Assembly: GCA_027051905.1 (NCBI GenBank)
Contig: JALUGO010000030.1
Span: forward strand, 1-64,000
From: Desulfurobacteriaceae bacterium
Lineage (GTDB): Bacteria > Aquificota > Aquificia > Desulfurobacteriales > Desulfurobacteriaceae
Direction: 5' to 3'
DNA: 64,000 nucleotides
Of the stretch, positions 33,469 through 39,069 are shown piece by piece. The notes below the pieces were generated by a model. The model was not told the origin of the DNA. It was given only the letters and a program-made list of their open reading frames with translations, and ran no database searches. How positions within the stretch are numbered: position 1 is the stretch's first letter; every line of letters starts with the position of its first letter. The translations under genes and the position numbers were made by a program.

Positions 33469-36400
33469 ATGGGAAGGAAGTGGAAGAGGAGTAGCCTTTC
33501 CCTGACGACAGGCTTTATACTTTCAGCAGTTCTCTCTGCTCAGGGTCTGGCTCAACACCCGGCTATACCACTTATCGACATTTACGGTAACTCTATCAAA
33601 GACGTAGTTGATTCCAGTAAAACTGCATACGAAGCCAACGAAACGGAGACAGATTACTCAGAACTGTTTGATACAAACTCAACACCTCTTGCCCTTACTG
33701 TTAAAACGAGAGATGGTGACAATGAAACCATATATAAGGGAACTCCTGTCAGTTTTGAGAATACCTGCGTGACATGTCATGAAGATATAGTTATGGATGT
33801 AAGGGCATCCCACCACGGAGCTGTAGGTCTTCACGATATGGGATGGATGGATAACAGGGAGACTTACGGAGACGACACCGGAACGAAGGACTTTGTTACC
33901 AACCAGGTTCTCAAAATGCGCTACTTCCGCACAAAGTCCCACTATGGGGGGTGGTGACCACCTTCTTACCGCCAGTTGGCGGCAAAGAAGCCACTTCAAG
34001 ACCCTGCTGTTCCAGATGGAGCAGTTGATGGAATTAACCCTGCCGATGCTGATGCCTACAAGGGCTTTAACTTTGATATGGGAACTCCAACCCACAACAT
34101 TACCTGTAACTCCTGTCATGCAGGAGGTGGCGCTGCCCAGTTTGGAAGGGAGAACAAGCCCCTTGATGAAGTTCTGAAGGAGAAACTGGGAAAAGATACT
34201 TTTGAATCTCTAAAAGCAAGAAACGACTGGTTTATCAGAGATATTGACATCCCCGTAGATGGAGATCTCTTCGGTTACTCAGACTACGAAGTCGGTGCAG
34301 GTTATGTAGGAAAGCCCGGCCTCTTTAACTTTGCCCGTTCAGGCGTTAACGATACCGACTGTTTTATGTGCCACGCTAAGGCAGATGCTGATTCCAAGAT
34401 CTATACCGAAATAAACGGTCATGTCAAAAGGCCGATAATGCCTGCAAACCCAAGAGTTATGGTCTTCAAGGGAATGACGTCAGATAATGAGACCATAGTC
34501 ATATCTCTCGGTATTCCTCCAGCTGTTGGAGATAAAGTTGGAAGTGACAACAAAACAGTTGCAAAAATTGACTCTGCTTACTACAACTCTGTTCCGCTTT
34601 CAGTTCTTGGAGCCCTATACGGCCTTTCACCTAAGGATATAGACAATATCAGGACGAACAACGGAACCTGGTCAAAGTTCTTCGTCTACCCCAACAACGC
34701 CAACGGTGCTACAAGAGAGGTAACAAGGGTTGTCTACTTTGAACATCCAGAGAGCACTACAGCCTTAGATGGTGGAGATGTTTACGTAAACGGTGGAGCA
34801 GCTACGTTCCACGAAGGGGGGAACAGCACCGGAGAGGTTGTATACAGGTCGTTTGCGGGATACTTCTTCAAGTATATTTCAACTGCAAGCCTTATGGGTG
34901 TTGATACAGATGGAGACGGAGTTCCCCTTGCTTATGTAAGGTTTGTAAAAGAAGATGGTATATGGAAGCCCGAAGTTTACTACGATTTAGATGAGTTTAG
35001 CGAAGGAGATAATGGAACAAAAGTAGCCCTCCCCATTCTGGAGAACAAGGATAGGCTTAGTAAAAACTACAACTACTCTGTTCCCACCTCCCTTGGAGAC
35101 GCCTCGCATCCTTATCCAAACATGAGCACACCGGCTGAGGGTGCTAATGCGAACAGGAACTGGGGATACGTCTGTTCTTACTGCCATATGGCAATTGTCT
35201 ATGAGGATGGTAACTTCACCAGTGATAACACCACAGTTCCTACCTATGCATGGGTTACAAGGAAGGGAATCCTTGGCCTTGGAGCTGAAATCGTTAAGAG
35301 AGGAGATGTCTTCTCATACGATCTCCATATAGGTGGTAATGAAACCGGCAACCTTGAGCCGGATGCTTTTGTGGGTGTTGACTTTTCAAACGAAACTCAG
35401 AGGCAACAGGCTTTTGGGCAGATGGTGACTGCAAAATCCGTCATTTCCCTTACCTACAACGGAACGAAGATACCTATAGGTTACGATGTTCACTTTGACA
35501 GTGAAAAAGGTGGAATGACCTGTCTTTCCTGTCACGGTGAGGGAACGCTTTCAGATGAGGAGAAACAGTATCACCCCATTCACCACGACTTCCTAAAAGG
35601 AAACGACTGGGGTGGTCACTGGGATCAGTCTTTAGACTACAATCCGTCCCTAAAGAGCTGTGTCGATTGTCACTTTGGTGGTTCAAGGGAGCTTGCTGCG
35701 GAAGTTCACACGGGTAAGTTCGGTCCTGATAATAATCCACTTCTTCATATGGAAAAAGTTTCCTGTGAGGTTTGCCATATACCCTTTAAAACTCACTGGA
35801 CGTTTAGAGCCTTCTACGATGTGCTTGGATACTCCTATAACTTTGACAACAGGATACTTGGATACGACTTCAGCAGTAACTCAACGATTCCTCTTGATGA
35901 GGGGAACTTTACACCTGGTTTTGGACCGTTTATGCCCATTGCAGGGTATGGAGCTCCCCAGCCCTTCTGCATAGTAAGAACAGACAGCGGTAACGATACT
36001 GTTGTTCCCATCTACCAGGTTGACTTTGACCCAAGGCAGGCAGCTTTAAGGTATGAACAGGCAGCATTTGGAATATGGGCGGTTCCAAGCAACTCATTCC
36101 CATGGGCTTGGGCACCTGTAATTATCAACAACGGCTTCAGACCTGATACCCCTGGTGGTCAGAAGTTCATGTATAGGATTGCCGATCCCCTTACACTTGT
36201 TACCTGGTATGACAAGTCTACCGGTAAGGTTCTCTACACCCGTGAGATTGCCGCTGCTTTAGATGGAGCGATTGATTCCAACTATGTTGTCGACAAGAAG
36301 GTTCCTGCCTACTTTATGGAAGGTGACAGGATATGTGTGCACACAATACTTGGAGATTCCATCTGCGATGATAACGGAGACTACCTGCCTGAAATAAATA

Positions 36401-37686
36401 CGGATGACGAATATGAAGCTATGAAGGCGGCAATCGCTGACGTCTTAAGTAGAGAAGGGGTCAGAAATCCAGAGCCTGTTTTCTACATCTGGACTGCACC
36501 GTTTAGCATAGACCATGGCGTTCTTCCTAAAGAGTTTGCCCTTGGTGCAGGAACCGCTATTAACGGTAATAAAGTTGACTGTAATGCCTGCCACGATGCC
36601 CTTAACGGTAGGCTTCCTCAGGCCAACATGTCTAAGATAAACGCAAATGAAGAGCTTAGCGCACTTATAGAGAAGGACAGCAGAGGCATCAAGTTCTTCG
36701 GTCTTGGAAGGAAAATCGTGACGGTTCCTGTTCCTATTCCGCCGAAGGCTTACAGAGAGGCCGTAAGGGTCTTCTTCAACTCACCGGAAGATAATAATAA
36801 CGATCCTATTTACGGAACCATGACTATAAGAGTGGCTGAGTGGGATGGCAGCAGCTTCTCACTGGAGAATAAGACTACGCCGGTTATGTATACAACAGCC
36901 GGAGATATTCTGGTTAATGCCCTTACAAACGGTATAGACATAGACAGGCACCTTGTTCCTATTCCTGTTGAAAGTTCTGGTATAGAGGGAGCTGCCTTTG
37001 CTTACCCAAATGAAGAGAAAACCTGGAATATGAAGATAGAGGGAATTAAAACCAAGGTAGAAACGGAAGCTCTTGAGGATGATGAAGTTCCAAGGAGAGC
37101 TATAGTTGTAAGGCTTAAGAACGAACTGCCAGAGCTTCTTGGCTTTGAGCACCTTGCAGATGAGATAATGAGCGCTGGCGGCTCAGACCTCAAAGAGGTA
37201 TTTACTCCTATAATTCCTTCTGAGCTTATAGTAAAGATGGAGTTCAAGCTATCCGATCTTGGAGTAACAGAGCCGGATGATCTTTACATCAACTACGCCA
37301 AGATCCATAAGGAAAGGATCTCAAAAGCAGTTTCCACTGGAGAGAATGTTGAATATGAAGTTAAATACGAGGTTAAAGACTTTGAACCCCATTCAATTTC
37401 TGTAAAAGAAGCCATATCTAAGGGCTGGGCAGCGTTTGATCCTTCAAGAGGAACCCTTACCATCCACACACGTGCGATGGCTGAAGAGATTCCTGGAGAA
37501 GGAGAGCTTGCCTTCTCCATTATGAGGAAACTGAAGCCTGAAGCTGAAACAACCGTTACTGCCGGTGGTGGTGGAGGTGGTTGTTCGGTTGCTCCTCAAA
37601 CAGGTGCGGGAAGCGGTCTCCTCAATCTTGGAGTTCTCTTCTCAGGTCTTTTAGGTCTGTTTGGTTTCAGAAGAAAAAGACATTAA
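33469..37686 (+). CDS. Octaheme c-type cytochrome with a candidate selenocysteine (in-frame TGA)
   Basis: One open frame of 1405 residues apart from a single TGA at 33955-33957 (residue 163). Residues 1-28 are a signal peptide. Eight CXXCH haem sites start at residues 100, 213, 298, 569, 685, 731, 766 and 1038: one before the TGA, seven after. Immediately after the TGA the RNA can form a SECIS-like hairpin, so selenocysteine insertion is the favoured reading. A split gene is unlikely because the second part would have no signal peptide or ribosome site although it carries seven haems. The end is a sorting-type tail: a run of Gly then CSVAPQ, a hydrophobic helix and RRKRH. The protein is likely periplasmic or on the cell surface, a redox enzyme or electron conduit. 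The substrate is unknown. A SurA-like lipoprotein follows. Confidence 0.8.
33955..33990 (+). promoter_or_regulatory. SECIS-like hairpin directly after the in-frame TGA
   Basis: After TGA (33955-33957), CTTCTT (33962-33967) pairs with AAGAAG (33985-33990), an A/CA bulge follows, CCGCC (33969-33973) pairs with GGCGG (33978-33982), and the loop is AGTT. The loop G at 33975 is 17 bases after the TGA. These values fit the published bacterial SECIS rule (apical loop of 3-14 bases, a G among its first two bases, 16-37 bases from the UGA). All bases are coding, as in bacterial selenoproteins. The TGA itself is also centred in the palindrome GGTGG-TGA-CCACC. Confidence 0.72.
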
Positions 37687-37776: not shown

Positions 37777-39069
37777 ATGAAAAGAGGAATTCTTCTGTCG
37801 GTTCTTTTTCTTCTCTCTGCCTGTGGTTCTCCGGCTTCAAGCTCTAAAAGCGTTTCAAAAACACCTGAGCCAAGTAAAAGCGTAAGAGTGTGTTCTCCCG
37901 ATACGGTTCTTGCAGAGGGGAAAGGAATTAAGGTTACGCTTGCTGACTATAGGTATGTTGAGGGTCTTCTTAACGAAAAGTCAAAAAGGTTTTTCTCAAG
38001 CCATCCGGAATCTCTTCTCAGGAGAATGATTAACAGGAGGCTCGTTATTAAATACCTTGAGGATTCCGGTTTGGCTGAAAAGTATGGTTTAGATAAGAAA
38101 ATGGAAAACTTTAAAAAAAGTTACTTATCAAGACTTTACGTTTCAAAGGAGGCTGAAAAAAGGATAAAACCAGTTACTGAAAAGGAGATAGTTAAACGCT
38201 TCAAGGAACTGTTCCCCAAAAAGGATCCTTCCAAACTAAGCGAGGGGGATAAAAAGTTCCTTAGAAACGAGCTTGAGGTAAAACACTACGAATCTGCGGT
38301 GGCTTCTGTTTATAAAGATGTGGAGAAGAAGCTGAGATTTAAGGAGAAGAAGGGAACTTTAACTGTTAGCTGTTGTGGTATTGAGGTATCTGGTAAGTTT
38401 AGAAGCGAAAAGGATAAAAAACAGCTCAAAGAACGTTTAAAGGGGGAGTTTTTTAAAGAGTATTTCTACAGAAAAGCGATTGAAGCAGGACTTGATAAGA
38501 ATCCTGAATTTCAGAGGATGTTTACTGAGTATTTTGCCGGAAAGGCTATTGATGTTTTCAGAAAGGAGCTTGAGAAGGGTATAAGAGTTTCACCTGAGGA
38601 GGTTAGGGCTTTCTATGAGAATAATAGAAATAAGTTCTTTATGCCGGACAGAGCAAAAGCTGTGGTAATTCTTGTTGATAGTAAGAAAAAAGCCAAAGAG
38701 GCGGAGGAGCTTCTCAGGAAAGGTAGGCCCTGGCCGGAGGTGGCTAGGAGGTTTGCAAACTTCACAGCCAGGCCGAAGGTTTACTACAGAGATGTGAAAG
38801 ACCCTGTTGGAACTCTGATTTTTGCAGAGGGAAAACCTGAAAAGGGAAAGATTTTTGTAGCACAGTTTGGAGATAAAACCTATGCCGTTGTTTATGTCCT
38901 TGAGTATATTCCCGGAGGCGTTTTGCCCTTTAGTAAAGTGAAAAACTATGTAGAGCTTGTATTGAAGAAGAGAAAACTGAGGGAGCTTGAGAAGAAAAAG
39001 CTGGAAGAGCTCTGGAAGAAGTATGGGGTGAAGTTAGAGAACATTGACTGTTTAAAGGGGAGTTCCTAA
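37777..39069 (+). CDS. SurA-like peptidyl-prolyl isomerase lipoprotein
   Basis: A 430-residue protein with a lipoprotein signal, LLSAC, so Cys16 is the lipidated residue. A SurA-type helical N-terminal domain (ADYRYVEGLLNEKSKRFF, RRLVIKYLEDSGL) is followed by helices and a short parvulin-like domain near residues 275-380 (VSPEEVRAFYENN, RAKAVVILVD). Such proteins fold exported proteins in the periplasm. A CC pair (residues 199-200) in the middle is unusual. The position right after the octaheme cytochrome suggests it helps that protein mature, an inference from neighbourhood. Its stop overlaps the stop of the opposing kinase gene. Confidence 0.8.
   Translation: MKRGILLSVLFLLSACGSPASSSKSVSKTPEPSKSVRVCSPDTVLAEGKGIKVTLADYRYVEGLLNEKSKRFFSSHPESLLRRMINRRLVIKYLEDSGLAEKYGLDKKMENFKKSYLSRLYVSKEAEKRIKPVTEKEIVKRFKELFPKKDPSKLSEGDKKFLRNELEVKHYESAVASVYKDVEKKLRFKEKKGTLTVSCCGIEVSGKFRSEKDKKQLKERLKGEFFKEYFYRKAIEAGLDKNPEFQRMFTEYFAGKAIDVFRKELEKGIRVSPEEVRAFYENNRNKFFMPDRAKAVVILVDSKKKAKEAEELLRKGRPWPEVARRFANFTARPKVYYRDVKDPVGTLIFAEGKPEKGKIFVAQFGDKTYAVVYVLEYIPGGVLPFSKVKNYVELVLKKRKLRELEKKKLEELWKKYGVKLENIDCLKGSS

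Follow-up and report, generated by a model that had tools for sequence, protein, structure and literature searches.

A family of octahaem cytochromes in the Desulfurobacteriaceae with a predicted selenocysteine between haems 1 and 2

The window, which is the whole stretch of 64,000 nucleotides analysed, contains at 33469–37686 a single reading frame interrupted by one TGA. Read through, it encodes an octahaem cytochrome of 1405 residues in which U163 is the sole recoded codon, with no other stop. The eight CxxCH motifs lie at residues 100, 213, 298, 569, 685, 731, 766 and 1038, so that one is upstream of the TGA and seven are downstream; the read-through translation and the motif count both agree with the initial annotation on this. 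That annotation also expected gene finding to see two proteins here, and standard translation yields just that, two ORFs. The second half has no signal peptide, as had been stated; its sole start is a TTG (33976) lying inside the hairpin discussed below, and there is no leader. The gene upstream is alaS (named from sequence). The features of the locus are as follows.

33469–37686, + strand: octahaem selenoprotein coding sequence, 1405 amino acids plus stop by TGA read-through; 36 homologues read alike
33469–33552, + strand: putative signal peptide, about residues 1–28, MGRKWKRSSLSLTTGFILSAVLSAQGLA; cleavage site inferred from sequence
33766–33780, + strand: haem 1 motif CVTCH, preceding the selenocysteine
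33955–33957, + strand: TGA, predicted selenocysteine 163, within the motif [GA]W-U-PPSYRQLAAK
33962–33990, + strand: predicted SECIS hairpin, window copy; lower stem 33962–33967/33985–33990
33967–33981, + strand: invariant SECIS core TACCGCCAGTTGGCG, codons +4 to +8
33969–33973/33978–33982, + strand: upper stem of the SECIS hairpin; loop AGUU at 33974–33977
34105–34119, + strand: haem 2 motif CNSCH; in octahaem tetrathionate reductase (OTR), whose haems come in the same order, its counterpart is the catalytic haem
34360–34374, + strand: haem 3 motif CFMCH, by CxxCH count
35173–35187, + strand: haem 4 motif CSYCH, by CxxCH count
35287–35298, + strand: E607-I-V-K610, paired by global hhalign with OTR D150-A-V-K153 (active-haem lysine ligand)
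35521–35535, + strand: haem 5 motif CLSCH, in YDVHFDSEKGGMTCLSCH; OTR equivalent TDVHMDSDGNNFQCQNCH
35659–35673, + strand: haem 6 motif CVDCH, by CxxCH count
35764–35778, + strand: haem 7 motif CEVCH, by CxxCH count
36580–36594, + strand: haem 8 motif CNACH, preceded by IDHGVLPKEFAL; OTR equivalent INHMVSPKEQAL
37564–37683, + strand: surface-sorting-like tail, C-terminal GGGGGGC-S, hydrophobic stretch and RRKRH; found family-wide
37777–39069, + strand: PpiC-type peptidyl-prolyl isomerase lipoprotein, directly downstream (PF13145, E 2e-10); possible folding helper

How general is this arrangement? When 136 genomes of the phylum Aquificota were searched with a profile, 36 distinct members of the family were recovered from 17 Desulfurobacteriaceae genomes, falling into three paralogous subfamilies that are 27–42% identical. 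Members of subfamily 1, the type found in the window, share 61–76% identity with the window protein, and those of subfamily 2 about 38–42%. Subfamily 3 proteins are shorter, at about 820 amino acids, and are 27–29% identical to subfamilies 1 and 2. All three occur together in several genomes. In a protein search of 61 relatives, full-length relatives with exactly one TGA were confined to the Desulfurobacteriaceae and no homologue was found beyond that family. Peptide patterns drawn from subfamily 1 only, scanned against 84,980 species, returned nine loci, all labelled as Desulfurobacteriaceae, Thermovibrio or Desulfurobacterium. Plasmid and viral collections contained no relative of the cytochrome.

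The aligned codon is TGA in all 36 members, and the sequence around it is highly conserved. In subfamily 3 the context becomes GKL-U-[PA]PAYRQLAP, and UPPxYRQLA is kept throughout the 36 sequences, apart from UAP in one member. No homologue has tryptophan or any other residue at this position. Within subfamily 1 the values of pS/pN are 0.67/0.10 before the TGA and 0.65/0.09 after it; because pN/pS is about equal on the two sides, both halves are translated in one frame. Faulty assembly does not account for the TGA, which is shared by 17 genomes, and in two of these the whole chromosome is a single contig. Nor is TGA globally reassigned in these organisms, because two members of the family terminate in a genuine TGA stop.

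The nucleotides that follow the TGA are more constrained than the protein that they encode. The five codons TAC CGC CAG TTG GCG, at +4 to +8 after the TGA, are identical in all 36 sequences. There are 68 columns in which a degenerate amino acid is invariant, and five of these are also invariant in codon; the five are consecutive and correspond exactly to +4 to +8. Synonymous differences (pS) are 0.00 at these codons, compared with 0.65–0.82 in 70 columns on each side, and three of the codons (CGC, TTG and GCG) are rare, each making up 7–8% of the codons for its own amino acid in the family genes. The frozen bases fold as (C)CGCC-AGUU-GGCG(G), a stem of 4–5 bp closed by an AGUU loop. The motif TGANNNCCNNCNTACCGCCAGTTGGCG has exactly 36 matches in the 136 phylum genomes, all of them at family sites in the 17 genomes and one per member, and its reversed control has 0 matches in the same 136 genomes.

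An 11-pair hairpin meeting the SECIS rules had been claimed at this position. It is present in the window copy, with 6 + 5 pairs, a free energy of –14.4 kcal/mol and z = –3.6 (0/200 shuffles), but only the upper stem and loop are found family-wide: the upper stem of five pairs and the AGUU loop are kept in subfamilies 1 and 2, with four pairs in subfamily 3, while the lower stem of six pairs is not conserved across the family. In a context of 121 nt the minimum-free-energy fold pairs differently (z = –0.75), and an Rfam scan gave no SECIS family match at the site. It is comparison rather than folding that excludes chance, because the TGA is present in 36/36 sequences together with five frozen codons. 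The loop is similar to those of two known selenoproteins of these bacteria, SelD and formate dehydrogenase (FdhA), and lies at almost the same distance from the UGA. Its G is the 18th base after the UGA in the cytochromes, where an internal comparison places it at the 19th base in SelD (loop GGUC) and the 20th in FdhA (loop GGUCU or AGUUU). In the SelD of the window genome (L119, G000:C15:67704-68627), which served as the internal SECIS control, there is an in-frame TGA close to the N-terminus. Two formate dehydrogenase-like proteins (L099 in G007 and L117 in G008) likewise have an in-frame TGA, with SECIS loops GGUCU and AGUUU, respectively.

The machinery required for selenocysteine insertion is complete in the window genome, with tRNA-Sec (selC) scoring 81.7 bits against a cut-off of 47, SelB 449.6 bits against a cut-off of 242, and SelD (377 bits) and SelA (615 bits) both above their family cut-offs. 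Within the order, tRNA-Sec was found in 20 of the 24 genomes searched. It was not found in the cytochrome-bearing genomes G004 and G020, for which only part of the candidates were scored. Both T. ammonificans and D. thermolithotrophum have a published tRNA-Sec (PMC4227106). Together with the invariant TGA and the frozen SECIS codons, the sel genes support the proposal of the initial annotation that the TGA specifies selenocysteine; that UGA 163 is so decoded, through SelB and the downstream SECIS hairpin, is very strongly supported by the sequence comparisons.

The protein is probably exported. Its N-terminus is basic and hydrophobic in every subfamily, and this leader and the GGGGGGCS tail together suggest that it is carried out of the cell and anchored at the surface. 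Compared with CTERM models the C-terminal tail gives weak matches of the JDVT/MYXO type only, none above cut-off. A GGGGGGCS-hydrophobic-RRKR tail is also present on a 782-residue frame of the same genome (G000:C7:81252-81410), and resembles a Cys-based surface sorting signal. An AlphaFold2 model of residues 27–1107, made from ten sequences, gave no usable structure (pLDDT 30, pTM 0.23).

The gene for the PpiC-type isomerase is the next gene in the seven syntenic loci in which the flank is present, and it is not beside the subfamily 2 and 3 genes examined. A PpiC-type isomerase gene also adjoins that of MccA, the octahaem sulfite reductase. The flanks of the three subfamilies contain no sulfur-specific operon, the neighbours being housekeeping genes. 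In one genome a cytochrome of 1025 residues with 28 CxxCH motifs (L062:2972-6046) is encoded about 560 bp from a subfamily 2 gene. A cytochrome b561, a beta-propeller and small multihaem proteins adjoin it, and these could form an electron route from membrane to surface.

The closest known system is OTR, and several lines of evidence connect it to the family. Scans against family models give weak, general matches only; the best is TIGR04315, at 28.4 bits for the window protein and 49.5 for subfamily 3; the cut-off of 375 is not reached, and part of this score is generic multihaem similarity. The connection to the OTR structure 1SP3 runs through intermediate OTR-like proteins, found in three genomes of genus g7 in which the selenocysteine family was not found. 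Against the genus g7 protein the family profile reaches E 6e-5, the haem blocks running in the same order, and it matches no decoy; the g7 protein in turn matches 1SP3 with E 2.8e-30. Searched directly against the PDB, the family profile returned nothing relevant. The eight haems of the family and OTR align one to one in the same order, and short segments pair between them, as LGAEIVKRGD with GGGDAVKHGD, YDVHFDS with TDVHMDS, and DHGVLPKE with NHMVSPKE. The first of these includes the lysine motif D150-A-V-K153, which lies after haem 4 in 1SP3. At this stretch [ED]xVKR is found in 24 of the 24 full-length members of subfamilies 1 and 2, where E607 and K610 occupy it in the window protein; subfamily 3 has no clear [ED]xVKR motif.

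Between haems 1 and 2 OTR has the only non-haem cysteine of 1SP3, at position 64 (as read from the alignment output, from which residue 73 is absent). In those members of the selenocysteine family for which both haems are in hand this segment has no cysteine at all, only the selenocysteine, placed 60–63 residues past haem 1. Cys64 and K153 reportedly both belong to the active haem of OTR (Mowat et al. 2004). Global hhalign does not pair the selenocysteine with Cys64, so that the equivalence is one of position only, and no cysteine form of the family itself was found in the genomes searched. On this evidence the view that the family is a divergent branch of the OTR lineage, with selenocysteine in place of the lone non-haem cysteine, is supported, but not proven.

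What might such a protein do? A selenocysteine serving as a catalytic centre near haem, as suggested in the initial annotation, is plausible from homology. Haem 2, with a lysine ligand provided from beyond haem 4, would be the likely active haem, and the selenocysteine its partner. The selenolate could attack the S–S bond of an extracellular acceptor such as thiosulfate, tetrathionate, polysulfide or S0, forming a Se–S adduct beside the haem. Electrons delivered along the haem chain would then free the product, sulfide, and restore the selenolate. The idea of the adduct is borrowed from TsdA, an unrelated cytochrome in which thiosulfate sulfur becomes covalently bound to a cysteine that ligates the haem (PMC5146829). 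The function would be the extracellular reduction of S–S compounds. Taken as a whole, we think it reasonably probable that this is an exported, probably surface-anchored, OTR-like selenocysteine octahaem cytochrome that cleaves S–S bonds at a site formed by the selenocysteine and haem 2. We know of no description of a haem–selenol active site that cleaves S–S bonds. Such a mechanism would suit these deep-branching, thermophilic vent bacteria, which respire S0 or thiosulfate by routes that the literature calls unclear or unknown (PMC5441870, PMC12724263). As a tentative extension, the selenocysteine cytochromes might supply the terminal reductases still missing from sulfur respiration in the Desulfurobacteriaceae, cleaving the S–S bonds of thiosulfate, polysulfide or solid sulfur at the cell surface by means of a haem and a selenol.

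Other explanations have to be weighed against this. If the TGA were a real stop, the locus would comprise two genes, or result from a recent nonsense mutation or a sequencing error, or else TGA would be read as tryptophan; standard translation does give two ORFs. We regard this as extremely improbable, and it is refuted on sequence grounds by the conservation of the TGA in 36/36 members from 17 genomes and three subfamilies, by the equal coding constraint on its two sides and by the frozen SECIS codons. Moreover, terminal TGA stops are used within the same family, and the second half lacks a leader and any start other than the TTG within the hairpin. A more limited role for the selenocysteine, purely structural or in electron transfer, as a haem ligand or in redox tuning, would make the protein an outward electron conduit rather than a terminal enzyme. 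The large extra domains and the surface-type tail would suit a conduit, as would the position of the one subfamily 2 gene that adjoins those of the 28-haem cytochrome and cytochrome b561. Yet a costly selenocysteine and its UPPxYRQLA context are absolutely conserved in 36 sequences (bar the single UAP), and a lysine motif of the OTR type is present, so we consider this role unlikely.

Closer to the reading that we prefer is a selenocysteine relative of OTR acting on a substrate other than sulfur. Nitrite, hydroxylamine, selenite or tellurite, peroxide and metals are all candidates, as is protection of the surface from oxidants, and the C-terminal tail points to the cell surface. Nitrite and hydroxylamine are also substrates of Shewanella OTR, according to the title of ref. 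134 in PMC8840924, and reduction of selenite and tellurite has been tied to ExtKL, a multihaem selenoprotein of Geobacter (PMC5877670). There are, however, no genes for nitrogen or selenium-oxyanion metabolism beside the cytochrome gene, and we see a non-sulfur substrate as possible but doubtful. S–S bond cleavage at the selenocysteine and haem 2 remains our preferred interpretation.

Multihaem selenoproteins were known before, in ExtKL and one TIGR04315 entry, and the Desulfurobacteriaceae family fits neither model. The proposal of ExtKL dates from 2007 and its name from later work (PMC1914089, PMC5877670). In a review of 2026 it appears among the selenoproteins, as does a single TIGR04315 octahaem cytochrome (PMC13188914). 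A literature search found no paper joining a selenoprotein with Desulfurobacterium, and two papers on Thermovibrio mention selenocysteine for the tRNA only (PMC5441870, PMC4227106). We thus have a selenoprotein family of three paralogous branches that no NCBIfam or Pfam model spans as a whole, and whose members standard annotation would split or drop. The change from the lone cysteine of OTR to selenium would allow the role of Se or S at a multihaem active centre to be tested directly, cultured relatives included.

Comparison with the known systems shows where the family stands. Like the window protein, Geobacter ExtKL (NF040886) is a multihaem c-type cytochrome that is exported and contains a single in-frame UGA, and it was mis-annotated as two genes (PMC5877670, PMC1914089). 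It has five haems, however, all N-terminal of the UGA, and even with E allowed up to 1 its model NF040886 gives no match to the selenocysteine cytochromes. One haem of MccA is of the CX15CH type (PMC7096707), whereas all eight here have a plain CxxCH motif. The tabulated TIGR04315 protein, WP_331457571.1, is listed as a selenocysteine octahaem cytochrome of the OTR family, 'GenBank annotated' (PMC13188914); it lies within TIGR04315 proper, which our family does not reach. The OTR-like proteins of genus g7 (L126, L128) also come from the Desulfurobacteriaceae and are octahaem proteins colinear with both OTR and the selenocysteine family, but are of Cys type (NDYC) without selenocysteine, with about 540 amino acids and a C-terminal membrane helix. 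The g7 genomes keep tRNA-Sec while having these proteins instead of the selenocysteine cytochromes, possibly as a replacement. Finally, Shewanella oneidensis OTR (PDB 1SP3; TIGR04315) shares with the family its eight CxxCH haems, their order, and the DVH-haem 5 and H-x(4)-P-haem 8 motifs. OTR has about 440 amino acids compared with 820–1540 in the family, and 42 residues separate haem 1 from its cysteine where 60–63 precede the selenocysteine; where OTR has cysteine, the family has selenocysteine, together with a surface-sorting-like tail.
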